Source: Actinomycetota bacterium (GTDB lineage: Bacteria > Actinomycetota > Acidimicrobiia > Acidimicrobiales > JAJPHE01). Taken from it: 32,936 nt of DNA. Location of the stretch: positions 1 to 32,936 of the forward strand of contig DAHUYE010000106.1 of the NCBI GenBank assembly GCA_027315345.1, given 5' to 3'. A program made the position numbers and the translations under genes. The notes under the pieces are model-generated. The model saw only the letters and a list, made by a program, of their open reading frames with translations, was not told the DNA's origin and searched no databases. Below, one piece after another: positions 16,383-32,936 of this stretch (its first letter is position 1; each line of letters starts with the position of its first letter).

Positions 16383-17624
16383 ATGGTCGATGTTGAGTCG
16401 TCGCCCGAGGACGAGCAGAACCGCTTGGCCGCGGTGCATCGCTATGACATCCTCGACAGTCCCCCGGATGGGGCGTTCGATCGGGTCACCGCGGTAGCGG
16501 CCCGCCTTTTTGACGTCCCCATCTCGATCGTGAGCATCGTCGACACCGACAGGATCTGGTTCAAGTCCCACCACGGGATCGAGGTGGAAGAGGTCGGGCG
16601 CGATCCAGGCCTGTGCGCCTCGGCCATCCTCTCTGACGGCCCCTGGCTGGTACGGGACGCCAGGGCCGACCCTCGGACGCTGGCCAACCCTTTGGTGGCT
16701 GGCGAGTTCGGCTTGCGGTTCTACGCCGGGGTTCCCCTGACCACCCATGACGGCTTCAATCTCGGCACCCTGTGTGTAATAGATCGCGAGCCGCGGGAGG
16801 TTACCGAACAAGAAGTGGCGACGCTCAGCGATCTGGCCGCGGTCGTAATGGACGAACTGGAGCTGCGGATCGGGGCGCGCCGGACGGTGGCTCTGGAGGC
16901 CCAGCTGCGCCACCATGCCGAGTTGGTGGCGGCGAAGCTCCAGGAGAGCCTCATACCCCCCCAGGTCCCCGTGGTCGACGGGCTCGATGTGGCCACCCGC
17001 TACCACGTGGCTCAGCTGGACCAGGTGGGTGGCGACTTTTTCGACGTGATCTCTACCGACTGGGGTACGGCGCTGACGCTGGGCGACGCTTGCGGTAAGG
17101 GCACCATGGCCGCAGCCTCCGCCGGGACGGCCCGTTGGGCTCTCCACGCGGTCATGATCGACGAGCCCGACCCAGCCAAGGCGCTCGAGCGAGTCAACAC
17201 CGTGCTCTACCGGTCGACTCCCAATGCCTCGACCTATGTGACGGCACTGGCCGTCTCACTGCGTCAACAAGTCGACGGCCTCGACATATCTGTGGCCGTC
17301 GGCGGTCATCCGCTCCCGCTCATAGTTCGCCGTGCTGGAGGGGTTGAATCGCTCGGAACCGCCAGCCCCATCGTGGGCTGGCGCTCCCAGAGCACCTACA
17401 CGGTCGCCCATGCCACCTTGGCGGCTGGCGACATGGTGGTGATGTACACCGACGGACTCCTCGAGGCGATCGCCGGTCGAGGCGAACCCGACGACCAGGC
17501 CCTGCGCTCTCTTCTCGGTCCGCTCGCCGGGCAGCCAGCGGATGAGGTAGCGCAAGCACTCGACGCTGCCATCGGCAACGAGCGCCGTGACGATGTTGCC
17601 GTCATGGTCACCCGCGTCCTGTGA
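16383..17624 (+). CDS. GAF-domain SpoIIE/RsbU-type PP2C phosphatase
   Basis: A 413-residue protein. The GAF domain at about 20-165 has the clear family core ISIVSIVDTDRIWFKSHHG, then LCASAI and FYAGVPLTTHDGFNLGTLCV. A helical linker (LEAQLRHHAELVAAKLQESL, then IPPQ) leads to a PP2C_SIG domain with GGDFFDV (216-222), GDACGKG (234-240), YTDGLLEA and DDVAVMV. It probably senses a small ligand or redox/light cue and dephosphorylates the STAS protein encoded immediately downstream, with which it overlaps by four bases (GTGA). ATG 16383 follows a GGTGGAA stretch. This is the first gene of a three-gene partner-switching operon. Confidence 0.92.
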   Translation: MVDVESSPEDEQNRLAAVHRYDILDSPPDGAFDRVTAVAARLFDVPISIVSIVDTDRIWFKSHHGIEVEEVGRDPGLCASAILSDGPWLVRDARADPRTLANPLVAGEFGLRFYAGVPLTTHDGFNLGTLCVIDREPREVTEQEVATLSDLAAVVMDELELRIGARRTVALEAQLRHHAELVAAKLQESLIPPQVPVVDGLDVATRYHVAQLDQVGGDFFDVISTDWGTALTLGDACGKGTMAAASAGTARWALHAVMIDEPDPAKALERVNTVLYRSTPNASTYVTALAVSLRQQVDGLDISVAVGGHPLPLIVRRAGGVESLGTASPIVGWRSQSTYTVAHATLAAGDMVVMYTDGLLEAIAGRGEPDDQALRSLLGPLAGQPADEVAQALDAAIGNERRDDVAVMVTRVL

Positions 17625-17953
17625 TCTCGTCCGAATCTCTCCCCTTTTCTGTCGAGGTCCTAACCGAGGGTGACCAAACTCGCATCGTCGCCCGGGGCGA
17701 GATCGACATCGCCACCGAGCAGGCCCTTCGCGATGCCGCTGCCGCCGCCGTGGCCTCAGCCCCTAGTGGACGCATCGTGGTAGACCTGCACCAGGTCTCG
17801 TTCATGGACTCCTCCGGCCTACGGGCCCTTCTGCAGAGCAGGGACACGGCCGAAGCCGCCGGGACGGCATTTCGGATAACGGCAGTGCCGGAGGGCGCGG
17901 TACAGAGACTGTTCAGGGCGGCCGGAGTGGCGGATTGGTTCGACTATGAGTGA
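17621..17953 (+). CDS. STAS-domain anti-anti-sigma factor
   Basis: A single STAS domain of 110 residues: ARGEIDIATEQALRDA, VVDLHQVSFMDSSGLRALL, where MDSSG (S64/S65) carries the regulatory serine, and RLFRAAGVADWF at the end. In the unphosphorylated form such proteins bind the GHKL anti-sigma kinase and free the sigma factor. The GTG start overlaps the phosphatase stop (GTGA), and its own end overlaps the kinase start by eight bases, so phosphatase, antagonist and kinase are translationally linked in the order of their biochemical circuit. Confidence 0.93.
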   Translation: MISSESLPFSVEVLTEGDQTRIVARGEIDIATEQALRDAAAAAVASAPSGRIVVDLHQVSFMDSSGLRALLQSRDTAEAAGTAFRITAVPEGAVQRLFRAAGVADWFDYE

Positions 17954-18338
17954 CTCGCTGCGATTCAGCATCCGCCTGCCGGCCCATCCCCTCTCGGTGG
18001 GCGTGGCACGCGCCATCGTGCGGTCCCTCTCGCGCAGCCTTGGATCCCACCACGCCGACCGTGCGGAACTGCTGCTCAGCGAGCTGGTCACCAACTCCAT
18101 CCGCCACGGTTCTCGCACCCCCGACGATCCGGTCGATGTCGAGCTGGTGCTGCAAGGCGATCATTTGAGCGGCAGTGTCTGCGATCAGGGACCGCTCTTC
18201 GACCGTCCCGCCGAGCAGCCCCGACCGGGTCAGGTCGGCGGGTTCGGCCTGCACATCGCCGCCGAGCTGGGCCAAGTGACGATCCAGCGCACCGACACAG
18301 GCAACCGCGTGATGTTCAGCCTCGCACCGGATCTCTGA
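17946..18338 (+). CDS. GHKL ATPase, RsbW-type anti-sigma serine kinase
   Basis: A 130-residue HATPase_c domain: N-box ELVTNSIRHG (46-55; Asn50 for Mg), G1 box CDQG (79-82), G2 box GGFGLHI (98-104). It should bind ATP, phosphorylate the STAS serine and sequester a sigma factor. No SigB/SigF-type sigma gene is present in the window, so its target lies elsewhere or it acts through another output. ATG 17946 overlaps the STAS gene by eight bases (ATGAGTGA). Nothing terminator-like was recognised after it. Confidence 0.9.
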   Translation: MSDSLRFSIRLPAHPLSVGVARAIVRSLSRSLGSHHADRAELLLSELVTNSIRHGSRTPDDPVDVELVLQGDHLSGSVCDQGPLFDRPAEQPRPGQVGGFGLHIAAELGQVTIQRTDTGNRVMFSLAPDL

Positions 18339-20689: not shown

Positions 20690-22873
20690 TCATGTGTCCG
20701 TCCCCCTCCGGGCGAACCATTCGAGGATCGCCGCGTAGAGGTCTTCGACGAGCGGCGGGCAGGGTGTTGCTTCGGCCAGGAGGCGCCCCGCTCTGGGCTT
20801 GCTCTTCGGAGCCTCCTCGGTAGCAGCTTCGGCTGCCGCCGCAAGTTGCGACTGCGAGTGGACGAATCCTTCGAAGGACTCCCGGTCCCCATGGGGCTCG
20901 CTCTGACGCTCCCAGCCCGGGGCCAGTGTGAAGACGCCGTGGCTTCTCCCGAAGTCCTTCATCGCATCGAACTGTGCCTGGTCCATCTCGCTTTGTGACT
21001 TCGAACCTAGGTTTTCGCTCTCGACATAGTGCCGGAGCACCGAATCATCGATACCCGCACTGACGACCTGCTCGAAGATATGCGAGCGCACATCGAACCG
21101 GAAGGCCCCGCCGTCGCAGACGACCGTCCAGGGCACGCCGAAGCGGTCGAGGTAGGCGAGGAAGGGACGGAAGGACTGATCTCCACCGACGGTGTAGAAC
21201 GCCAGGTGCAGGTCGTCCGGTGAGCGGTTCCGCTCGGCTGTCTTGCTGGTAGCGAACCAGGCCGGCAGCGCGGCCAGCTCGGTCGGTCCTTCTGTCAAGA
21301 TGACGCCATTGGCGAATAGGAGTCCGCGGGCGTCCGCTGACCAGTTCAGCTCCTTCACGAGCGTCCCGATCCACCGCTGGTCGGCCAAGTCGCCCGGCGA
21401 TAGACGGTGGGTCCGGGTGGCCCCTTCCCGAAGGTCGAGCCGGACGATGGACGCCAGGTGGTCCCGGCCGTCCGATGGCACGAGGTAAGGCGAGTGGGTG
21501 ATGAGCAGGCACTGACCCTCCCGGTTGGTCAGGTGAGAGCGGACAATCCGCTGCCACGACGGGTGCAGGTTGGTGGCGGGCTCGTCGAGCAGAAGCACCC
21601 GGTCGGGATCGCCGACCAGCGTCTCGGCGATGAGCAGCGCCTGCTGTACGCCGGTCCCGGCCAGGCGAAACGGTCGCCCGATTGCCGGCAGCGGATCGCC
21701 AGAAGCGGGAAAGATCTCGATCTGGATGGCCGGGTCGTCGCCCTCAGGCGTGCGCCGCCGCTCGGTCCTCAGCTCGAACCGCCGCCCCGGTGCCAGCTCC
21801 TCGAACCTGGCCTGGACAGCGCGGTAGCGGACCTGTTCCTGTTGGTCGCCGTTCTTGAGGTCGTGCAGCCGCTCGGCCAGCCCATCACCACCGCCACGGG
21901 GATCGTAGCCAGCAGCGACCGACTCCGCGCTGTCAGCCCTGCTTAGCAGCGCCGGATCGTTCACGCCTAGATGCCAGAGCCCGTAGTCCAGAACGTGCGA
22001 GAAGACGGATCCAAGCGTGTACGACCGCCGGAAGGGGCCGAGGGGGTCCTCGGGAGCGGACGGCAAGCCGATGGCAGCCACGAACTCGCGGTGCGGCAGC
22101 GGTGCGACGTTCGAGTTGAGCGGGTTCATGTTCAGCTGGACCAGCTCACTCTCCGAGGGCAGCAGCAGCGCCAGGGAGAACGGCAGATCGGGCGGACGCA
22201 CCGGACGAGCGTCATGGACACCCTGGCCGAAGAGGCGGACCCCCAGGATGACGGTGTTGGGCAGCCCGGCCGCTTCGTCCCGGTCGGAAGGGGCAATGAC
22301 GTTGCTCAGGTTCGGCAGGTCGGTGTTGATGTGCCAGGTGAGGGGAGCGTCCTCGTATTGGAACTCATAGCTCACCTGCCACTGGGCGCCGAGCACTCCG
22401 GAGTGCGAAACGACCAGCGTCCCACTGGTGAGACTGGCGAGGGCCTCCGGCATGACTTGCTCACGGATCCAGGCCTCCAGCCGGGGAAGCGAGGGTGAGT
22501 CGATTACCTGGTTGCCGAAGCTGGCTGAAAGGACCATCATCCCAACGAACGAGGTCAGCAGCTTGAGCTCGTTCGGACCCGTAAGGTCGGTCTCCAGGCG
22601 GATGACGCTGCGAGCGTTGGGTGCCATGCCCTCGTGCCGGGAGAAGCGGGCGTAGTCCTCCAGGGCAGCCCAGAGGGGTTGACGCTTGTCTTGGCCGCTG
22701 TCCTGAAACCGCAGCACCGCCTGGACCAACTTCAATGCCCGCACCAGGTTCGACTTGCCGGCGGCGTTGGGACCGACGATCACCGTGAGGTCCCGGTCGA
22801 GATCGAGCCGCAGCCGGTCTTCACCGGTACCGAATGAGAAGATGCCCTCAGCTTCCAGTGCCTTCAGCCGCAT
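20690..22873 (-). CDS. OLD-family ATPase with TOPRIM nuclease domain
   Basis: Overcoming-lysogenization-defect-type protein of 727 residues. The N-terminal ABC/SMC-like ATPase has Walker A GPNAAGKS (34-41). A long insertion (about 50-390) precedes the signature-like LAGTGVQQ (404-411), Walker B RVLLLDEPATNLHP (about 425-438) and a His switch LLITHS (about 457-462). A C-terminal TOPRIM domain carries ILTEGPTE (E528 and E532, the ExxxE pair) and VVCDGG (D587). The second Asp of the usual DxD is replaced here (DGG). Homologues (GajA, PtuA-like, retron Eco8 effector, P2 OLD) nick or cut phage or host DNA. ATG 22873 is chosen over an in-frame TTG at 22882. It is the last gene of the operon, 42 bases after the large repeat protein. 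Confidence 0.9.
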   Translation of the reverse strand: MRLKALEAEGIFSFGTGEDRLRLDLDRDLTVIVGPNAAGKSNLVRALKLVQAVLRFQDSGQDKRQPLWAALEDYARFSRHEGMAPNARSVIRLETDLTGPNELKLLTSFVGMMVLSASFGNQVIDSPSLPRLEAWIREQVMPEALASLTSGTLVVSHSGVLGAQWQVSYEFQYEDAPLTWHINTDLPNLSNVIAPSDRDEAAGLPNTVILGVRLFGQGVHDARPVRPPDLPFSLALLLPSESELVQLNMNPLNSNVAPLPHREFVAAIGLPSAPEDPLGPFRRSYTLGSVFSHVLDYGLWHLGVNDPALLSRADSAESVAAGYDPRGGGDGLAERLHDLKNGDQQEQVRYRAVQARFEELAPGRRFELRTERRRTPEGDDPAIQIEIFPASGDPLPAIGRPFRLAGTGVQQALLIAETLVGDPDRVLLLDEPATNLHPSWQRIVRSHLTNREGQCLLITHSPYLVPSDGRDHLASIVRLDLREGATRTHRLSPGDLADQRWIGTLVKELNWSADARGLLFANGVILTEGPTELAALPAWFATSKTAERNRSPDDLHLAFYTVGGDQSFRPFLAYLDRFGVPWTVVCDGGAFRFDVRSHIFEQVVSAGIDDSVLRHYVESENLGSKSQSEMDQAQFDAMKDFGRSHGVFTLAPGWERQSEPHGDRESFEGFVHSQSQLAAAAEAATEEAPKSKPRAGRLLAEATPCPPLVEDLYAAILEWFARRGTDT

Positions 22874-22915
22874 GGTCGACAAGCGTACTGACGGCCAGTG
22901 ACGATCTCCCCTTGA

Positions 22916-25783
22916 TTACCTCTCGCCTGGCTGCAGCACGCTCCGGAACTGTCGATAACCCCGTGCTCCGAGCCCGTGGGTGATCTGTTCCGCCTTCTCA
23001 CGGACCTGTTCAGGACCGCTGAGTGCCGAGCGCAGGACCTCGATCACGGACTCCTCGCCGAGCACCAGCCAGTCGTCACTCTGTCCCTTCATCATCAGAT
23101 CGAGGACTTCAACCACCTGCTCGGGGCGGGCGGACACCAGTTCCGCCAGACGCCGGCCCACGAGATGGCCGGACTCGACTGAGCCGGCGAGGCGCAATGC
23201 CCGGAGGATATGGATGAGTGCCCATTCGGGGTCAAAGGCCGGCGAAACAAACCACCAGCCGAACTCGACCATCTCGGGGGCGAAGGCAGACCGGTCTTCG
23301 GCGGCTTCGGCGGCGGCGATGCGGGCCTCCCAGAGGGCCATGGCCCGATCAACCGCCTCGGCGGCCATCGGCGGGTCCAGTGGCCGTGGTGCCCGATCCT
23401 CAATGGTGTACGAACTACGGCCCACAAAGCGCAGAGCGACGGAGCGAAGCTCCGCCCGGGCGGTGTTGAAGAACTCCTGAAGTAGTTCGTCGTCGATGCC
23501 CAACCGTCCGCGCAGGTAGTAGACCATCAAATGCTCGGCCAGCCTCTGCCAGGCCAGCATCGGATGCTGGCGGTCGGGACTCTGCTCCGCCAGCCGAGCG
23601 ACGGCCCGCCGGTACTCCTCCTTGAGCAGGTTCAAGGCCGAGTCATAGGGCGGGCAAAAGCTGACGTATGCCTCCCAGGCGGCTTCCCAGTAGAGAAAGC
23701 GGTCCTCGTCAGCCGGGAAGATTCTCCCGACGTTCTGCGCCGCCCATGCCTCGTCGACCAGCGCGAGCCACGGGAACCACTGGCCGTAGAGCGAGTGAAT
23801 GGCGTAGGACGGATCACGGTCCAGGTCGAGGTGAGCCTCCAGGACCTCTCGGACTTCGGGCATCCGGTCAAAGCCGGTCGTCCCGGCAGGAGCGCTTGCT
23901 GTTTCGAGCTGGCGGTGTACCCAGACCGCATACTTGACGACCGATCCGATGGCCTGGCCCCGGACGGTGTTGATAGCGAGCGTCGAGGGGTCCATGTTGT
24001 CCCCGCCGAATCGCTCTTCGGACTCTTGGGTCGGATCGGGGTCGTCGCTCAACGGACGCAGGATCGACCAGGCCAGCTCCCGCAGGTGAATGGGGATCTG
24101 GGCCGGCCCGTCGTTGAAGCCGACGTCCAGGAGGTGGGCAGTCGTGCTGCGTGTCCAGGACCACGGCAGGTCGAGAGCGTTCTCCGCCGAACCCGGCCTG
24201 AACTCAGCGCCTCGGTCAAGGGTCCGCTTGGCGAGACGAAGGACCGGTTCCCAGTCAAAGACCTGCCTGCTGGCGGCGGCGTTGCGAAACCCTTGGAGGA
24301 CGGAGTTGATGTAGACGGGCGGTACTGCCTGGAAGATCTGAGCGATCTCGGCGTAGCGCACCGGATCGTCTTTGACGGCCGTCTCGACCAGGCGTCCCAG
24401 ACCTTCCGGTGAGGGAGCGCCCCAGCCGCCTTGCGGCTGCCAGGACAGGAGGAAGTCGAGTAGCTCGTCGTGTGACATGGCGGCGAACTCTTCGTTGCTC
24501 AAGGGACTGGTCGGTCCGACGAAGCCGCCGTCCATGTAGGACAGGAACTCCGGATGCTCGATCAGCCGGTGCTCGGCGACCAGCCGGTTGAACCAGGCCC
24601 GCTCGTCCGGAGGCAGATCGTCGCTGATCGCGGCGAGCATCCGGGCTTGCCAGGTCAGGAGCCCGATCTCCCGGTTGCGGACGTCGGACTCCTCCGGCTC
24701 GGTGTAGAAGGGGGGACCGGCGCTAATGGCGTCAAGCACCTGCCGTTGTTGCCGTCCGGTCAGGCCCGTAAACCGATCGTGAAGCAGCATCCAGAACTCG
24801 TGGAGCAGATCGCCGTCGTAGAAATAGGATGTGCCGGTCAGCCGCTCCGACACCAGGGCCGACCGCCTCGGCGCCGCCACCCGGATGACGTCCAGGGCGA
24901 TTCGCCGATGGATAGCCCAGGAGTAGCCCTCCAGCTGGGCGACACCCTGAGCCAGGTCGGACCGGTCGGTCCTGGCCAGACGGAGGCCGGCATCCCGGAC
25001 CGCCGTGACTATTGCGCTGCGGGTGCTGGGGATGTTGTTCTGGCCGCGCGGCTCGACAGCTGGTCGCCAGACGAACGAGTAGTCGTGCCGACGCTCCTCG
25101 GGGTCACGGGCTTCGAGCGTCATGGCCCGATCGAGCAGGTCGCATAGGACGGTGAATCCCCGGAACCCGGTACCGCCGATGAAGTCCGGCAGGGATTCGC
25201 TGAGCAGACGCTCATAGTGATAGTCATCGATGACCGGTCGGACCTCGACCGGCCACTCAAGTGTCTGACCATCGTCAGTCGTTGTACGGATCGGGTTGCC
25301 GGCCCGCACGTCGAAGAGAGCGGAGGCAAGGGAGATAGCTGCATCGGCGAGCCCCGCCGCTGCCAGGCGCCGGAGGAGTTGGGCCAGCTTGTCCGGCAGC
25401 AACAGCCGGAATGTGCCGTTGAGCCAGCCGACCAGGCGGGGCACGAACTGGACGGCCATCTCCGGCGGCAGCGCCAGTACGGCCTCGGCGTAGTCATGGT
25501 GAACCCGGGCGTTATCCGTCTCGGGCATCTCGAGCAGGACCCTACGGACCTGCTCGGGGCTGCGGGACGCTACCCGGACGAGGTATCGGAGGGCCGCCCA
25601 GGGCGACAGCTGATATCCGCCGTCGACCGGTGTCGGAGTTGGCGGCGATGTGAAGAAGCCTTCGGCGGCGAGCGGCTCGATCCAGTCTGGTGAGGTTAGG
25701 TTGTCGAAGAAGTAGTTGACGTCTTCTCCGGTGATCAGGGTGTCCAACACCCGCTTGATCAGAGCGCTGTCAGGTCTTGCCAT
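22916..25783 (-). CDS. Large helical-repeat protein of unknown family, defence-island component
   Basis: A 955-residue soluble protein with no signal peptide, no membrane helix and no recognisable P-loop or nuclease motif. The N-terminus (GEDVNYFFDNLTSPDWIEPL, then AAEGFFTSPP and WAALRYLVRVASRSPEQVRR) has the look of short alpha-alpha repeats. Amphipathic helices recur throughout (RLVGWLNGTFRLLLPDKLAQ, LLRRLAAAGLADAAISLASA), suggesting a HEAT/ARM-like solenoid. Such solenoids act as phage-protein or nucleic-acid sensors, or scaffolds, in other defence systems; that role here is inference. Its ATG shares one base with the stop of the preceding gene (TGATG), so the two are coupled. I know no named family for it. 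Confidence 0.82.
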   Translation of the reverse strand: MARPDSALIKRVLDTLITGEDVNYFFDNLTSPDWIEPLAAEGFFTSPPTPTPVDGGYQLSPWAALRYLVRVASRSPEQVRRVLLEMPETDNARVHHDYAEAVLALPPEMAVQFVPRLVGWLNGTFRLLLPDKLAQLLRRLAAAGLADAAISLASALFDVRAGNPIRTTTDDGQTLEWPVEVRPVIDDYHYERLLSESLPDFIGGTGFRGFTVLCDLLDRAMTLEARDPEERRHDYSFVWRPAVEPRGQNNIPSTRSAIVTAVRDAGLRLARTDRSDLAQGVAQLEGYSWAIHRRIALDVIRVAAPRRSALVSERLTGTSYFYDGDLLHEFWMLLHDRFTGLTGRQQRQVLDAISAGPPFYTEPEESDVRNREIGLLTWQARMLAAISDDLPPDERAWFNRLVAEHRLIEHPEFLSYMDGGFVGPTSPLSNEEFAAMSHDELLDFLLSWQPQGGWGAPSPEGLGRLVETAVKDDPVRYAEIAQIFQAVPPVYINSVLQGFRNAAASRQVFDWEPVLRLAKRTLDRGAEFRPGSAENALDLPWSWTRSTTAHLLDVGFNDGPAQIPIHLRELAWSILRPLSDDPDPTQESEERFGGDNMDPSTLAINTVRGQAIGSVVKYAVWVHRQLETASAPAGTTGFDRMPEVREVLEAHLDLDRDPSYAIHSLYGQWFPWLALVDEAWAAQNVGRIFPADEDRFLYWEAAWEAYVSFCPPYDSALNLLKEEYRRAVARLAEQSPDRQHPMLAWQRLAEHLMVYYLRGRLGIDDELLQEFFNTARAELRSVALRFVGRSSYTIEDRAPRPLDPPMAAEAVDRAMALWEARIAAAEAAEDRSAFAPEMVEFGWWFVSPAFDPEWALIHILRALRLAGSVESGHLVGRRLAELVSARPEQVVEVLDLMMKGQSDDWLVLGEESVIEVLRSALSGPEQVREKAEQITHGLGARGYRQFRSVLQPGER

Positions 25784-26445
25784 CAGGACTCGCCCTCTCT
25801 GATCAGCGCATCGATCTTGTCGGCGTTGTCAAAGGTGCGGGGCCGCACTCGGTCCAGCATGAAGTTCTCGAAGGCGTTGTACCAACGGTCGAAGTCATCG
25901 ACGGAACAAGGGGAGTGATGGGCGCTCCGGACGAAGAAATCTCGGATGTCCATCCACTCCTCGGCGTGGCGCTCCTCGATCCGTTGCGGCAGGAGGCGGT
26001 TGGAGGGGTCGAACCGGGTTACGGTACGGCGGGCAACTTCCCGCCGGGCAGGGAAATTCCCGGCCTCCCAATCGAAGAACCTTTCGAGTTCACTGACGAA
26101 TCGATCGCTCAAAGACTCGTTGGTCTTGTTCTTAGCCCGGGGCTCCCTCCGCCATTTCGAGGCCAGGGCCTTCACCTGGTCACTGAGTCTGTCCGGCGCC
26201 TTTAGAGATGCGTCCGCGAAGTGGCGGGGTAGTTCGTTGATGAGTTCACGGAGACTATGGCTGGCCTGATGGAGATACTCGGGATTGTCCATTGCGGCCC
26301 GCGCCTTGACGGCCCCCACGAACATCCGTCCCAGGTCTTTATCCCGCTCTACCAGAACATCGAACAGGACAAGCTGCCGGGCCGTCAGGGTGGTCAGCTC
26401 CTGAGGGGCTGCCGGTTGGCTGGTCGGCTCCGGAGCGGTGCTCAT
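25783..26445 (-). CDS. Small helical protein, possibly HEPN-like, defence-island component
   Basis: A 220-residue, largely helical, charged protein. After a Pro-rich leader come LVLFDVLVERDKDLGRMFVG, HSLRELINELPRHF and, near the end, WMDIRDFFVRSAHHSPCSVD (165-182) and a long helix FDRWYNAFENFML, finishing PRTFDNADKIDALIREGE. The layout R...R-S-A-H-H followed by a terminal helix recalls HEPN domains, whose ribonuclease motif is R-x4-6-H; the spacing here (R168 to H176) is not canonical, so catalysis is uncertain. ATG 26445 has a strong GGGAGG six to seven bases upstream and overrules a longer non-conserved leader. A 166-base gap separates it from the ATPase gene, so this three-gene segment may have its own promoter. 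Confidence 0.8.
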   Translation of the reverse strand: MSTAPEPTSQPAAPQELTTLTARQLVLFDVLVERDKDLGRMFVGAVKARAAMDNPEYLHQASHSLRELINELPRHFADASLKAPDRLSDQVKALASKWRREPRAKNKTNESLSDRFVSELERFFDWEAGNFPARREVARRTVTRFDPSNRLLPQRIEERHAEEWMDIRDFFVRSAHHSPCSVDDFDRWYNAFENFMLDRVRPRTFDNADKIDALIREGES

Positions 26446-26611
26446 AGGCACCTCCCATTCTGAGCCCATTGACGGTGACAGAGGCGGCGACCCGGCCGAA
26501 GTCCCGACGCCGAGGGCAGCGTGGCCGACGGCCGGCTTGCGGTCGCCAGTACCAGCCCGTGTGTTAAGGCATGTAAGGCCACCAAATATCACGACTGTCC
26601 TGGCTCTTGCC

Positions 26612-29600
26612 CTAGTCGAACTCGGCAGGGTCAAGTCCGAGGGTGCGGGCGTTCTCGGTTACCACTCGCCGTGTGTCCTCGCTGAAATCCGGACCGTCGG
26701 CTTCGATTTCGATAGTAATCCTGAGGTTGCTCCCACGCGCCGCCGCAAGGTGCGGGATCAGTTCGGTGGCAATGCTTCCAGCGACCGCCGCTAGCCGAGC
26801 TGGGTTCTGCACTTCTATTCGTCCGAAAAAGTGGTTCAGGACTCCAGGTACTGGCTCCTGTCGCTCCGGTGGACGCTGTCCGCCAGGGCCTCCACCATGC
26901 GCGGGGCCGCCTTCGGCCGCGTCTGCTTCTTCATGTGCCTGACGTTCCGCGCGTTGCTGAGTAAGAGCGACGCCCGGCATGACTAGCACGCTGTTCCCGT
27001 CGGCGACAGGGCGGTCAACTGACCCGTTGATGACCAGCCCACGGTATCGGCCGTTCTCGGCGTCGAAGGACTCGGCGTATCCGAATCCCTCGTCCTCGAC
27101 GGCGAATCCCTGAGGTCCAACAGCGACGGCGCCGAGGAAGACGGACAGGTCCTTCAAGCGGGGCAAGTAAGGGTAGCGGGCGAAGTCCTCCCACACCTGG
27201 CTCACGTCGACATGATCGCCGTCTCGCCACAGCGGGATTCGATCCAGCTCAAGGCGGAGGTTGGTTGCCCCGTAGACGGTGCTCAGATGGTCGGGCATCG
27301 CCTTACGTGCAGCCCGGGTGGCCAGCCCGCCCTGACCATTGACCCTGATTGCCTCGATGTGGAACTCGGACTCTTCGGGCGTCTGGGCTGGGACCAGGAG
27401 CCAGACGTAGGTTTCGCTCAGACGCTGTCGCACAGTGTCCTCGGCCGTGTCCCGTTTGGTCCTCGCCTGAGTGATGCCGAACTGGTCGAGGTTCATCTCC
27501 GCCTGGCGATCAAAAATGTGGGACCACGCCATCTGTTGCCGGATCGCCGTGAGTAGGTCGGGGAGCCGGTTTTGGTCGGCCGCCAGGAACACGAGCATGT
27601 TGCGGTAGGCGCGCTCTCCACCGGACCGACGGGAGACGATGTCCGTGGCCACCGCAAGCGCCTCGGACGACGCCGATCTTGGCGCATATGCGTATTCGGG
27701 CCGCAGAATCACAAGGCCTGCCGAAGCCTCGTCGGCAACGTCACCCGGGTTGTGCGGGCAGCGATGGACCCGTGCGAACTCGCCCTGGTCGGTCTGAGCC
27801 TGGATCAGGCGAGCAAGCGCCTCGTTCACTTCGTCCTCGCGGTATCCCTCAGCGAGAGCCTGGGCAGTGCTGGCGACCGAGGGGATCGTCGAGTACCAGT
27901 AGCGGGAGCCGTCCACGTAGAGGTGGGTGGCCCGGTCGGACAGCCGCCGCAGTGCGTCGCCGAACACCGCGGTGCTCTCCCCTGGGAGTACGCTCCCCAG
28001 CTTCACCCGTACGTCCTCGATGCCACGGTTCGGGTTCTGCCCGGCAGCACCGTCCTGGGTCCGCCGCTGCATCGTTGGGGCCGAGCCTATAAAGACAGTC
28101 CGGGCGACCCGTCGTGCGGCCCGGAGACGGCCGAGAGCAGGAATGTCCCGGTCGAGGACGTTCGGCACCGAGCCCCGCCCGTCGATGTCGGTGTCGACGA
28201 CGGGCTTCCAGTTGTCCTCCAGGTGCCGGGTGACCTCTTCGAATACCTGCTGGTCGTCGAGGGGGATGCTGGCAGGGAGAATCAACGGATTCTGGTCGCC
28301 GTTTGCCCACAGGCTGTGGACGACGGCCGCCATTAGGCGCAGCACCCCGCGGGTCCTCTGAAAGCGCTCCAGGGCAGCCCAGTCCTGATAGAGGCGATCG
28401 AAGAACTCGGGATGGATCGGATAGGCGCGCTTGATGCGATCCTCGTAGGACGCCTCCCGACTTTCCGCCGGGAACTCGGTCTCTTGCTGGCGGTACATCT
28501 CTACGAATCGACGAGCGACTACGTCTCGCTTGGCGAAACCCTCGGCGTCAAGGGGCTTGAACAAGCGGCGTCGCACGATCTCAAACCCCTCCTCGGCCGT
28601 CGCTGGCTGCCATGGGGAGTCCATGCGATGCATGACGTTGCGCAGTCGCTTGAGCGCCTCAAGCCCGCCAACGCCGCCCACCTCAATGCCGGCCTCAATG
28701 GAGCCCTCTTCGACATCGGTGGAGGCGCTGAACCTATCCGACGCCGGGATGGAGACAAACATCATGGCGGTGGGCACGGCCTTGACCGCCTCAGCCAGCG
28801 ACTGAGCGAAGCTCATCTGCGCATCGAAGCTGCCGCCGAGGAGGTCATCCTTCGCCCAAAGTTGGCGGGCATATGCCACCCACTCATCGATCAGGATAAT
28901 GCAGGGCGAGCAGAGTTCGAGAAGCTCCTGCAGAGCCGCGCTGCCGGGGTCCACCCCGGCCTGGTCTTCATTAGCGACAAGGCTGTACCCTTCTGGCCCG
29001 GCGAGCTGCCACGCCATTTCGCCCCAGATCGTTCTGACCGTGGCGCCGTCGCCCTTTTCCACCAGACGATGTGGTGAAAGAGCGGTGCCGACGATGACTG
29101 CACGGGTCACACTCGATGGGATAGCGTCCACCCCTGCCTCAGCACCGATCTCCTCCATGCCGGGGAGGCTGAATGCGTCCGGCCCGACCCCGGCCAGGTG
29201 GAACACAGCGAGCAGCGAGTGAGTCTTGCCTCCGCCGAAGTTGGTCAATAGGTCGATGACTGGCTCCGCCGTCTGACCTGCGAGCCTGCGCACAGTCTGA
29301 ACAAGCAGCGTCCGTAGCCCTCTGGTCAGGAAGGTCCGACGGAAGAACTCCTCAGGGTCCGTATATTCGGGAAGCCCGTTGCCCCGGTAGACCTGGGCGA
29401 GGTCGGCCGCGAACTCTGCTTGCTGGTAGCGCCCGGTTGCCACGTCCTCGTGGGGCTCGATGACCTCGCGCCAGCCTGGCAGACCAGACTCGGACGACGG
29501 GGCGACCACACCAGGCAGAGGAGCGGCAGTGGCCTTCTTAGTCATCTCCTCGAAGCGGAGGCGAAGCGCCTCCTGGCGCAGATCGTCTACCGCCGCCGTT

Positions 29601-29977
29601 TCCGGCGCTCCGACGGCGCTCAGGAGGAGGTACGCGGTGTCGAGAACCCGGTAAGTGGCGTCGGCAGTGAAGGACTCCTTGTGAGCCCACTTGTGTCGGG
29701 CATCACGCAGTTCGCCGATATAGCTACGTTCCTGTTGGCCCAGGACCTTGCGGAACGGATTCTGCCAGTGATTGATCGTGACCCAGAGGAGAAAGTCCGG
29801 GTCGGTGGGATTGGGTTCAGAACCCCCCTTTTCCCTCGCCCAGCCGCCCCGATCCGCCGCCTGACTGATCCAATCCTCTGGGTACATACGGGACAGTTCG
29901 GAAGCGACGAACGGACCAAACCCAACGACGACCAGGTCGAGCGCCTCGTCGATCCGCTGTCGATTACTCTTGGGCAT
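26612..29977 (-). CDS. Swt1-like HEPN domain + DUF499-type P-loop ATPase
   Basis: A 1,121-residue cytoplasmic protein. Residues about 5-145 form a Swt1-type HEPN domain (IDEALDLVVVGFGPFVASEL at the start, LRDARHKWAHKESFTADATY at 90-109), with R94-x4-H99 as a possible ribonuclease motif. A linker is followed by an ATPase with Walker A NFGGGKTH (246-253) and Walker B CIILIDEW (359-366). The remainder has the DUF499 look (KRAYPIHPEFFDRLYQDWA, FQRTRGVLRLMAAVVHSLW, then long strand/helix alternation). DUF499 ATPases are repeatedly found beside DUF1156 methylases in predicted defence loci. ATG 29977 lies 13 bases after the methylase stop, with GGAG upstream; a longer leader to 30022 would overlap the methylase and is not family-like. 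Confidence 0.9.
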   Translation of the reverse strand: MPKSNRQRIDEALDLVVVGFGPFVASELSRMYPEDWISQAADRGGWAREKGGSEPNPTDPDFLLWVTINHWQNPFRKVLGQQERSYIGELRDARHKWAHKESFTADATYRVLDTAYLLLSAVGAPETAAVDDLRQEALRLRFEEMTKKATAAPLPGVVAPSSESGLPGWREVIEPHEDVATGRYQQAEFAADLAQVYRGNGLPEYTDPEEFFRRTFLTRGLRTLLVQTVRRLAGQTAEPVIDLLTNFGGGKTHSLLAVFHLAGVGPDAFSLPGMEEIGAEAGVDAIPSSVTRAVIVGTALSPHRLVEKGDGATVRTIWGEMAWQLAGPEGYSLVANEDQAGVDPGSAALQELLELCSPCIILIDEWVAYARQLWAKDDLLGGSFDAQMSFAQSLAEAVKAVPTAMMFVSIPASDRFSASTDVEEGSIEAGIEVGGVGGLEALKRLRNVMHRMDSPWQPATAEEGFEIVRRRLFKPLDAEGFAKRDVVARRFVEMYRQQETEFPAESREASYEDRIKRAYPIHPEFFDRLYQDWAALERFQRTRGVLRLMAAVVHSLWANGDQNPLILPASIPLDDQQVFEEVTRHLEDNWKPVVDTDIDGRGSVPNVLDRDIPALGRLRAARRVARTVFIGSAPTMQRRTQDGAAGQNPNRGIEDVRVKLGSVLPGESTAVFGDALRRLSDRATHLYVDGSRYWYSTIPSVASTAQALAEGYREDEVNEALARLIQAQTDQGEFARVHRCPHNPGDVADEASAGLVILRPEYAYAPRSASSEALAVATDIVSRRSGGERAYRNMLVFLAADQNRLPDLLTAIRQQMAWSHIFDRQAEMNLDQFGITQARTKRDTAEDTVRQRLSETYVWLLVPAQTPEESEFHIEAIRVNGQGGLATRAARKAMPDHLSTVYGATNLRLELDRIPLWRDGDHVDVSQVWEDFARYPYLPRLKDLSVFLGAVAVGPQGFAVEDEGFGYAESFDAENGRYRGLVINGSVDRPVADGNSVLVMPGVALTQQRAERQAHEEADAAEGGPAHGGGPGGQRPPERQEPVPGVLNHFFGRIEVQNPARLAAVAGSIATELIPHLAAARGSNLRITIEIEADGPDFSEDTRRVVTENARTLGLDPAEFD

Positions 29978-29990
29978 CTGCGTCAAGCTC

Positions 29991-32678
29991 CTATCCGAGG
30001 CCGGGCAGCTGCCCGCTACCAAGTCGTTGCTGGGTTTGTAGCTGTTGGGCGAGTTGCGCTATTTCGGGCCAAGAGGCGACGAGGACGTTGTATGCCCCGC
30101 CTTCCTCCGCCCATCCCTTGCGTTCACAAATGGCATACAGCCGGTACGCCAGATCTCGGGCAGCCTCGCTGTTCGAAAGTCGACTGAAGAGGCTCGCTGC
30201 TTTCTCCTCGCCGCCATCCAGCAACTGCTCGACTAGATGCTGGACCGACTCCCAAACAGTTGCCCGGGCATCTTTGGCGGGGTCATAGTCCTCGGGCAGC
30301 TCGTCACGTCGAAGGAGGCGACAAGTTCCACCTCTAGTTACGATGATGCCGGCCCGTTCCAGTCCCTCGATGCTGGTTACCTTCGCCCTGGCAAGGGAAT
30401 CGGCCTCGCCGGAAGGAGCCTCACCAAATTGGAACTGCTCAAACCAGGTGATTGCCCAGCGGGTGTCGGCGTCGAACTCCCCCTCCTGTTCATCCAGAAC
30501 CTCGCCCAAAACAGAGTTGACGAGGAGCAGCGCCGAACGGACCGTCATCGGGGTGCCGTCCGGTTCGAGAACCGACTGGTGCCGGGTGAACACAGCCATA
30601 CCTGGTCCAACTACCGCCTGTGCCAAGTCGACAGGAGCCACCGCCGCCGATTGGAGAAGCTGAATGGCCGGACCAAGCTCGGAACGCAGGGCGACCGCCA
30701 GGTCCCGACGCGAGACCCTGACCGCTTCTTGATGGCGAGGTCGGCAGACCAGCACGACGTATGACGCAAGCGTGTTCGCGCCTTGGCCCACATTCGAAAT
30801 CAGACGAGCGGCTCGTGCTCCTCGAATGGGCCACGTCATGACCACCGTGAGCCCCGAGCGGATTACCGCTTCGAGAATTGCCTCCCACCCAGGTGACACC
30901 CGAGCTCCCCGCTCTGCCTCCTGTTCCTTGTGGGCGTAAACGATGAGAAGTGGAAGATCATCGCGAGCGGCATCGCAGAGCGAGGCGAAAGTCAGGGTGA
31001 ATCCATCAATAAAGTACTGCTTCGCCGCCTCCTTGGAATCATGCCGGGCGGGTTCCGCAATCAGCTCGCCGCCCTTCGGGGTGGCCATGGTGGCGAGGAG
31101 TTCTGGGTAGACGTCTTTGAGCGCGAGTCGGATCCAGGGGTAAAAGTAATCGGCCAGGTTCGCATAACCGATGGCCGCGAAATATGGTGGGTCGGTAACA
31201 ACTAGACACCGATTGGTGAGTTCCTCACTATGAGTTCGAGCATCTCCCTGAACCACCGTTGACGCAGGCCCATGGGGCTCAATAAATCCGTAAGCTCTGC
31301 TGGAGGTCTCGACCACTTGAATCCAGTCGCCCACCGACCCGCCGAAGGGATTGACCTCGGCGAAATCCATCAGCGGCGCAACATCATGCTGAGCAAATGC
31401 GGGTTCCGCCTTGGCCGTCGCCGTCGATCGCACGTTCCACCTGACAAGAGTCGAGGATGATTGGGCGAGCTTTCCAACACAAAGCCCAAGAGCGGTCGCA
31501 ACGCTCTTAGCCTGCTGATCACTGCCCCCGTCCTCCCTGACCCATTTGGCAACATCACTAACAAGCGATGCAAAAGTGAGCAACATCTGTCGCTGTCTGT
31601 TGGTGAAGAGACTGGGCCAGTCGCGGATTCCGTATCCCCATGCTGAGAAGCTCAGTGCTTGTTCCGGTATCGCCAAGACGGGAAGGCAATCGGGTTCGCT
31701 GATCTGGGAAGCGGCCACATGTTCGGGAGAGGACGCATAGAACTTCCTCCCGTGCTGGCCGCTCGAAGCGAACGAGGTCATGACGATCCCTAGCCGACCA
31801 CTCTGCCCCTGTTGCCTTACGTAGGAGAGCGGAATTGGCGCCCCAGACAGCAAGCACGTGTCGCGTCCGGGTGAGGTCGGCTGTCCTTCCATGTGAACTT
31901 CGAAGGAGATGGACTTAGCAGCTAGGTCCACAACCGGCTTGAGGTAGGCCCTGAACTTCGGCGTCTTTGACAGCCACCAGTTGCCAACCAAGGGCACGTG
32001 GGACCCCTGGAATCGAGGGTCAGGGCTCTCGACCGTTCGTGCCCACAGCCAAGCAATTACTGGATCACCATTCGGGGCGAGTGGGTAAAGGTGACCGATC
32101 TGCTGCCAGGCAGCATCCCTAACACGCTTAGCGTAATGCTCTACATCGGATAGAAACCCTGAAAGTCCCCGCACACTGGTCTCATCGAAGAGGCCGTCAG
32201 CATTTATCTGCGGGCGATCTACAACGGCTGGAGGTAGTTCAGTCAACGCCTTCGAGATAAGCACTGGCACGGGGTTCAGATCACTCCCCCGGCTGGACAG
32301 GCCGAGACGCTGAGCCTCCACGAGGGTCGAACCGCCACCACAGAACGGGTCGAATACAATCGGGGTCTGTTCCATGCTGGCGGCAATGGCCTTCTTGGCG
32401 GCATCGAGAACTTCCGCCTCGGGATTGGACGCCACAGAGGCCACCAATCCTTTGATCGTGTCAAATAGCCTGGCCCGCTCAGCATCTTCCCCTGGGTCAT
32501 CCACGAGCGAAGCGAAGATGAGTGCCCGTAGCGCTGGAACAGGCATCGGGGCAAACCATTTGTGCAAGTTGCGGATCGTCCCCGTCTTTCGTTCCTTGTC
32601 CGCCTTGCATGCGGCATTGATGGCTTCGAGTGGCAGGGCCGTCTCGATAAGCTTCTTGCGGTACGGGGTATGGCTCAA
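29991..32678 (-). CDS. DUF1156-type DNA methylase (adenine/cytosine-N specific)
   Basis: An 895-residue protein. DUF1156 lies at the N-terminus (RKKLIETALPLEAINAACKA, then GTIRNLHKWFAPMPVPALRA). SAM-binding motif I is FDPFCGGGSTLVEAQRLG (109-126) with SDLNPVP (132-138); the catalytic motif IV is VVTDPPYF (493-500). DPPY is typical of amino-methyltransferases (N6-adenine or N4-cytosine). Motif I precedes motif IV by about 380 residues, an alpha-class-like order in which the insert would hold the target-recognition region. It probably marks host DNA as self. The TTG start overlaps the stop of an upstream gene (TTGA), so this was not the first gene of the operon. Third codon positions are visibly less GC-biased than in the left half of the window. 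Confidence 0.92.
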   Translation of the reverse strand: MSHTPYRKKLIETALPLEAINAACKADKERKTGTIRNLHKWFAPMPVPALRALIFASLVDDPGEDAERARLFDTIKGLVASVASNPEAEVLDAAKKAIAASMEQTPIVFDPFCGGGSTLVEAQRLGLSSRGSDLNPVPVLISKALTELPPAVVDRPQINADGLFDETSVRGLSGFLSDVEHYAKRVRDAAWQQIGHLYPLAPNGDPVIAWLWARTVESPDPRFQGSHVPLVGNWWLSKTPKFRAYLKPVVDLAAKSISFEVHMEGQPTSPGRDTCLLSGAPIPLSYVRQQGQSGRLGIVMTSFASSGQHGRKFYASSPEHVAASQISEPDCLPVLAIPEQALSFSAWGYGIRDWPSLFTNRQRQMLLTFASLVSDVAKWVREDGGSDQQAKSVATALGLCVGKLAQSSSTLVRWNVRSTATAKAEPAFAQHDVAPLMDFAEVNPFGGSVGDWIQVVETSSRAYGFIEPHGPASTVVQGDARTHSEELTNRCLVVTDPPYFAAIGYANLADYFYPWIRLALKDVYPELLATMATPKGGELIAEPARHDSKEAAKQYFIDGFTLTFASLCDAARDDLPLLIVYAHKEQEAERGARVSPGWEAILEAVIRSGLTVVMTWPIRGARAARLISNVGQGANTLASYVVLVCRPRHQEAVRVSRRDLAVALRSELGPAIQLLQSAAVAPVDLAQAVVGPGMAVFTRHQSVLEPDGTPMTVRSALLLVNSVLGEVLDEQEGEFDADTRWAITWFEQFQFGEAPSGEADSLARAKVTSIEGLERAGIIVTRGGTCRLLRRDELPEDYDPAKDARATVWESVQHLVEQLLDGGEEKAASLFSRLSNSEAARDLAYRLYAICERKGWAEEGGAYNVLVASWPEIAQLAQQLQTQQRLGSGQLPGLG

Positions 32679-32811
32679 CGTGGTGACTCTGCTCTCTGCC
32701 AGAAGTGGTCGAACTCGTAGTTCACGCTGGCAACTCCAGTGAGTGCATCGTCTTGGCCCATGAAGGGGTCGTAGAGGTAGCGGACTTCGACTGAAAGTTG
32801 AGTCCCAGGAA
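32675..32811 (-). pseudogene. C-terminal tail of the gene upstream of the methylase, cut by an insertion
   Basis: The minus-strand frame reads GTQLSVEVRYLYDPFMGQDD, then ALTGVASVNYEFDHFWQRAE, and stops at TGA 32675. This TGA overlaps the TTG start of the methylase by four bases (TTGA), so the gene was once the first or an earlier cistron of the operon. The composition is clearly coding and no start codon fits; the frame stays open to 32866, but the sequence beyond about 32811 probably belongs to the insertion sequence. The protein family is not recognised from this tail; in related loci this position can hold a helicase or DUF3780 protein, which is only a guess here. Confidence 0.55.
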
Positions 32812-32913
32812 GTGGTGTAAGAGCCGGTAGGGCCTGAAGGGTCCCCCAGACGCGACAGTCACCGCGTCAACCTCAAGAAGCAGTTCGACACAAACCACTT
32901 GAGGAGGAACACG

Positions 32914-32936
32914 ATGACTGTCCCTACAACTATCGA
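32914..32936 (+). CDS. Start of a transposase, probably IS256 family (runs off right edge)
   Basis: Only eight codons are inside the window: MTVPTTI followed by Asp or Glu. A strong GAGGAGG at 32901-32907 sits six bases before the ATG, and the non-coding leader of about 100 bases is what IS256-type elements show before their transposase. Several actinobacterial IS256 transposases begin MTVPTTIDP or similar; that is the basis for the family name. The outer end of the element should lie between about 32800 and 32850 (GTGGTGTAAGAGCC at 32812-32825 is a candidate), but no second copy is in the window to prove it. Confidence 0.45.

Follow-up and report, generated by a model that had tools for sequence, protein, structure and literature searches.

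We found that a 955-residue protein encoded in a defence operon of an Actinomycetota bacterium corresponds, by homology, to the part of Dsr1 that lies downstream of the SIR2 domain, with the SIR2 domain itself missing, and that its gene is coupled to one for a 220-residue helical protein. We lean towards reading the two as a split, SIR2-less version of the Dsr1-type design: a two-subunit phage-sensing, fail-safe module in which the 955-residue protein would serve as the recognition and regulation subunit and the 220-residue protein as its partner. The DNA analysed (32,936 nucleotides; hereafter the window) is a whole contig.

Results

The open reading frame occupies exactly positions 22,916–25,783 on the minus strand and runs uninterrupted for 955 codons plus a stop. 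The initial annotation had assigned its product to no recognised family, a statement that no longer holds: the Dsr1 profile of PADLOC (PDLC04166) covers the protein, with residues 5–944 matching positions 305–1215 of the 1227 in the profile (E = 8.3e-43). Pfam lacks a matching family, which explains the earlier verdict, and it recognises no enzymatic motif in the protein, as had been stated. The NCBIfam Dsr1 model gave a weak match (E = 4.4e-7), with 28 bits against an equivalog cut-off of 1400, so the protein is a relative of Dsr1 that falls outside the NCBIfam equivalog. The first 300 positions of the PADLOC profile remained unmatched, and these are where Dsr1 carries its SIR2 domain; comparison with a protein of genome G692 that has SIR2 fused ahead of the solenoid (locus L057) places SIR2 there as well, so the 955-residue protein amounts to Dsr1 minus its effector. 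SIR2 had no match in any of the five operon proteins searched with Pfam and PADLOC. Likewise, the DSR2 profiles of PADLOC did not match the 955-residue protein, and no DSR2 chain appeared among the PDB matches of either the single sequence or the family profile.

The amphipathic helical period described in the initial annotation was present but modest, with a mean hydrophobic moment of z = 2.7 at 100 degrees relative to shuffled sequences, whereas the value at 170 degrees was indistinguishable from them (z = -0.5). Self-BLAST of the protein did not find an internal sequence repeat. An AlphaFold2 model built from two sequences was poor (pLDDT 53.9) and all-alpha, with some 50 helices. A Foldseek search with this low-confidence model returned mostly HEAT proteins, for example importins, at a TM score of about 0.2, which is consistent with an alpha-solenoid. 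The N-terminal pattern that the initial annotation had picked out proved to be conserved. It spans residues 25–71 (25,571–25,711, minus strand) and reads FFDNLTSPDWIEPL..EGFF..PP..W..RYL. Across a diverse set of 11 relatives, among them proteins associated with SIR2 or NTPase partners, F25, F26, W34, P48, Y67 and L68 were invariant and L38, G42, F44, P47 and W62 almost invariant. This conserved start, FF..W..G.F..PP..W..YL, was seen again in diverse relatives.

The partner gene occupies 25,783–26,445 on the minus strand, with its ATG at 26,445. The start of the 955-residue gene overlaps the stop of this upstream gene in a TGATG (TCC TGATG GCA; junction TCCTGATGGCA), so the two genes are coupled, as the initial annotation had proposed, and in relatives both proteins are fused. 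A split form also exists elsewhere: in genomes G011, G813 and G862, a gene for a protein of 240–289 residues precedes and overlaps the solenoid gene, giving, with the window, four split pairs with overlapping junctions. The 955-residue protein is 39% identical to its relative in G011, which has the same split gene order. In five further loci (G088, G239, G508, a Goldiibacteriota MAG and a Streptomyces plasmid), a domain of the 220-residue type stands at the N-terminal end of a single long polypeptide. When a profile was made for each form of this domain, split and fused, the two matched with hhalign (95.7%, E = 8.7e-9), and HMMER cross-matches between the two forms reached about 1e-9 in a small test set. 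The window's 220-residue protein is the most divergent member, and the fused profile found it weakly (E = 0.046). The tree is compatible with a single splitting event or with several. When the 220-residue domain alone was used as a query, it was present in 3 out of 396 genomes of the phylum, all three of which also carried the solenoid, so it looks like an obligate partner of the solenoid.

Seven residues were invariant in nine sequences of the 220-residue family (H63, R66, E67, W164, A175, H176 and L197), most of them in the motifs HxxRE (H63-x2-R66-E67), W (W164) and AH (A175-H176). No Pfam or fold assignment held up for the family, and a catalytic fold was not recognised in the nine members. 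The best Pfam candidate, pP_pnuc_1, matched one member out of nine (E = 0.0037) and was not taken as an assignment. A HEPN identity, considered because of the AH motif, was dropped: none of the nine members matched HEPN, the family did not match the HEPN domain of HmaC, and of an Rx4-6H motif only the H of AH was invariant, the window copy having no R five to seven residues before it. A structure model from one sequence was poor (pLDDT 44.0). Matches of the 220-residue protein to Rhizobium plasmids obtained by tblastn (E = 0.9) were attributed to chance.

Searches of genomes and plasmids recovered further relatives of the solenoid, linked to the 955-residue protein by the Dsr1 profile or by BLAST similarity. 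Besides the SIR2 fusion in G692, a separate SIR2 gene lies immediately before the solenoid gene in G505, G256, G255 and the Vibrio plasmid pOCN014; the solenoids of these split arrangements scored 377 bits (Vibrio plasmid) and 119 bits (G505) against the Dsr1 profile, and a relative embedded in a BREX locus (P0006) scored 173 bits. G557 carries a TIR–solenoid fusion with a SIR2 gene upstream. At locus L038 (1021–5167), a TIR–solenoid gene lies directly downstream of a SIR2 gene, an arrangement with two NAD-degrading domains around one solenoid.

On haloarchaeal plasmids the solenoid is fused behind STAND-like NTPases, and these fusions scored 113 bits with the Dsr1 profile. Three plasmid loci (L004, 4309–8814; L005, 8354–12,835; L006, 5577–10,028) encode such STAND/Avs-like NTPase–solenoid proteins of about 1500 residues, which are uncharacterised candidates for archaeal defence receptors. 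They join the NTPase to the same solenoid as in the window, where, by contrast, the 955-residue protein has no NTPase domain. In six genomes, the solenoid is fused behind a DUF255/Thioredox_DsbH domain in what appear to be ordinary chromosomal settings, some of them beside biosynthesis genes; the domain was identified by Pfam in one of the six and by a matching N-terminal sequence in the other five. Four of these fusions were compared with the 955-residue protein and were 30–38% identical to it, and the fusions form one clade (100/100). Their DUF255 parts are SPATA20/YyaL-like (L030, 6887–11,740; L031, 3836–8656; L032, 7811–12,622; L033, 336–5132; L036, 815–5575; L037, 8203–12,969). Some adjoin biotin-synthesis-like genes, and in L030 the thioredoxin CxxC is altered (STSWQC). 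The viral contigs and phage records searched yielded no relatives. Taken together, these architectures show the Dsr1-type recognition region as a stand-alone module with at least five different partners, and suggest that bacteria swap one recognition module among different effector partners.

The pair lies in an operon on the minus strand. Upstream of it are genes for an HmaB-like DUF1156 DNA methyltransferase (29,991–32,678; PADLOC HmaB, E = 9.7e-232; Pfam DUF1156) and for an HmaC-like DUF499 ATPase with an N-terminal Swt1-type HEPN domain (26,612–30,022, with a likely start at an ATG at about 29,974; PADLOC, E = 2.7e-280; Pfam DUF499, E = 6.1e-31; HEPN_Swt1, E = 1.7e-26). Downstream, on the same strand and 33–42 nucleotides from the 955-residue gene, is a gene for an OLD-family ABC ATPase with a TOPRIM-like domain (20,690–22,882; 730 residues from a TTG, with an ATG three codons on at 22,873), which matches AAA_21 (E = 1.2e-20) and OLD-like_TOPRIM (E = 1.7e-12) in Pfam as well as the GajA and Old profiles. 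The widest gap in the operon, 166 nucleotides (26,446–26,611, minus strand), separates HmaC from the pair; no sigma-70-like promoter was found in it. It is possible that the pair was acquired on its own, as a separate unit.

The contig breaks upstream of HmaB. Its last bases (32,793–32,936) are a repeat shared, at 99%, with the end of another contig of the same genome (G000:C20:6297-6440), probably the start of an insertion sequence, so an insertion sequence may part HmaA from HmaB. A near full-length HmaA gene lies at the end of a third contig (G000:C13:141-3518) and points out of it, which makes HmaA-HmaB-HmaC-220-955-OLD the likely order, the adjacency of HmaA across the break being deduced. 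Elsewhere in the window, on the plus strand (16,383–18,338), genes that by eye are of GAF/PP2C, STAS and RsbW type stand in a row, a regulatory cassette unrelated to the present finding.

Modification or restriction genes were neighbours in five out of the nine pair or fusion loci; the solenoid, not the presence of defence genes nearby, had been the criterion for picking these loci, and the count is an observation, not a tested statistic. The five comprise the window, with Hma; G011, where the pair lies between remnants of BrxC and PglZ, among fragmentary BrxF/BrxC, PglZ and BrxA genes; G862, with HsdM; G239, where the fusion adjoins an Eco57I type IIG enzyme; and G508, where the neighbours are an N4/N6 methylase and a type II restriction enzyme. 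At locus L034 (5896–15,881), genes for a type IIG methylase, a DUF3644 protein, a fusion of the 220-residue type and the solenoid, and a DUF697 GTPase follow one another on one strand.

Among the 34 HmaC-bearing genomes in the sample of 396, only the window's own genome carried the solenoid, and 33 did not; the module of the 220- and 955-residue proteins is therefore an accessory of Hma and not a core component. In the other Hma genomes, the slot downstream of HmaC mostly had no continuation on the same strand, and a few had other cargo. By eye, HmaC is followed by a TIR-like gene at L082 (723–1094) and by a pair of GmrSD-like and Schlafen-like genes at L087 (431–2959), which suggests that the slot after HmaC is a variable accessory slot.

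Discussion

The window thus has HmaB and a HEPN-fused HmaC, with HmaA on another contig, as in Hma, the DUF499-centred Type-1 BR system, but the pair and the OLD gene are extras. Its nearest relative pair sits among BREX genes, whereas PglZ and other BREX-specific genes are absent from the window operon proteins tested. With Dsr1, the protein shares homology over its whole length to the region after SIR2, supported by the weaker NCBIfam match; it differs in having no SIR2 NADase, in being encoded with its partner by two genes instead of one, and in its score far below the cut-off.

The trigger of DSR2 is a phage tail tube protein: its C-terminal region detects this protein, and the SIR2 domain at the N-terminus is thereby freed (PMC10973363). 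The likeness of the window protein to DSR2 is one of analogy, a long helical C-terminal sensor controlling an N-terminal effector; the window protein has no SIR2 and no sequence match to DSR2 profiles or solved structures. Sharing this layout, the solenoid would recognise a phage product, which could be a protein or an inhibitor of restriction, much as the C-terminal region of DSR2 does, and would release the 220-residue protein. The change would be passed on at the N-terminus of the solenoid, the place held by SIR2, TIR or an NTPase in relatives, and release of the partner would start a response that is toxic or nucleolytic, in which the OLD-TOPRIM protein may also take part. The pair would act as an accessory fail-safe layer upon restriction-type systems, here upon Hma, with its helicase HmaA, methyltransferase HmaB and HEPN-ATPase HmaC. 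The homology to Dsr1, the pairing or fusion with the 220-residue family, the change of N-terminal partners and the place in defence loci are observed; sensing, activation of the partner, its effector activity and cooperation with Hma and OLD are steps that we infer. The homology supports the initial guess that the 955-residue protein may be a phage sensor, and its position next to restriction systems hints at a fallback defence once restriction fails. For BREX and BR loci, such backup modules, including OLD proteins, have been reported (PMC12839542).

The adjoining OLD gene raises a different reading, in which the solenoid and the 220-residue protein regulate and the OLD-TOPRIM protein is the nuclease of a three-gene system that acts on sensed infection. 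The close spacing on one strand and the ATPase and TOPRIM-like matches speak for it, as does the description of OLD ATPases as recurrent backup modules in a survey of BREX/BR loci (PMC12839542), in whose main text SIR2, Dsr1 and solenoid do not occur. Yet none of the other three split pairs or five fusions was seen to adjoin an OLD gene, so that we found no special link of the pair to OLD, and the TOPRIM region reads CDGGAF where D-x-D is expected, which puts its activity in doubt; we judge this arrangement fairly unlikely. The pair might instead be a targeting or structural subunit of a restriction-type complex (Hma, BREX or type I/II) and no independent sensor, given that five loci adjoin modification or restriction genes and that the G011 pair sits within BREX remnants. 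These neighbours are of quite different types, however, and because the enzyme systems are unrelated, a single docking surface is improbable; in addition, 33 of the 34 Hma genomes do without the solenoid, and its close relatives pair with SIR2, TIR or an NTPase instead. We therefore consider a subunit role unlikely.

The DUF255 fusions call for caution, as they indicate that the solenoid may be a general protein-binding scaffold, beyond a phage sensor alone. The initial annotation had named a housekeeping match as what would count against a defence role, and the six fusions, in ordinary-looking settings, go part of the way there. That the family has a housekeeping role and came into this operon by chance nevertheless seems very unlikely to us, since the other solenoid architectures carry or adjoin conflict domains (SIR2, TIR, STAND-like NTPase or restriction genes) and the partner in the window's operon belongs to a family found only with the solenoid. 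We give almost no credence to a decayed Dsr1 that lost its SIR2 part and no longer functions, an idea to which the absence of SIR2 from the five operon proteins and the probable insertion sequence upstream of HmaB might lend colour: the frame is full-length, its relative in G011 retains 39% identity and the same gene order, and four split pairs with one partner family point to a maintained architecture.

For the two-subunit, fail-safe reading that we prefer, the fold class and the relation to Dsr1 are already known. We did not find a SIR2-less split form with the 220-residue family in Hma, BREX or R-M settings, or a description of this partner family, in the limited open-access literature searched. 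A wider proposal, tentative and in our view doubtful, is that the 220-residue family is a new type of effector that replaces SIR2 in Dsr1-like immunity, and that the pair is a transferable fail-safe guarding Hma, BREX, type I, type II and type IIG systems and firing when these are breached or inhibited.

The finding would give a gene without an assigned function an identity, as the sensor half of an anti-phage protein that is already known, with a partner family that recurs next to restriction systems. It also yields a prediction: when the N-terminal partner is swapped and the solenoid kept, phage specificity would be kept and the outcome would change.
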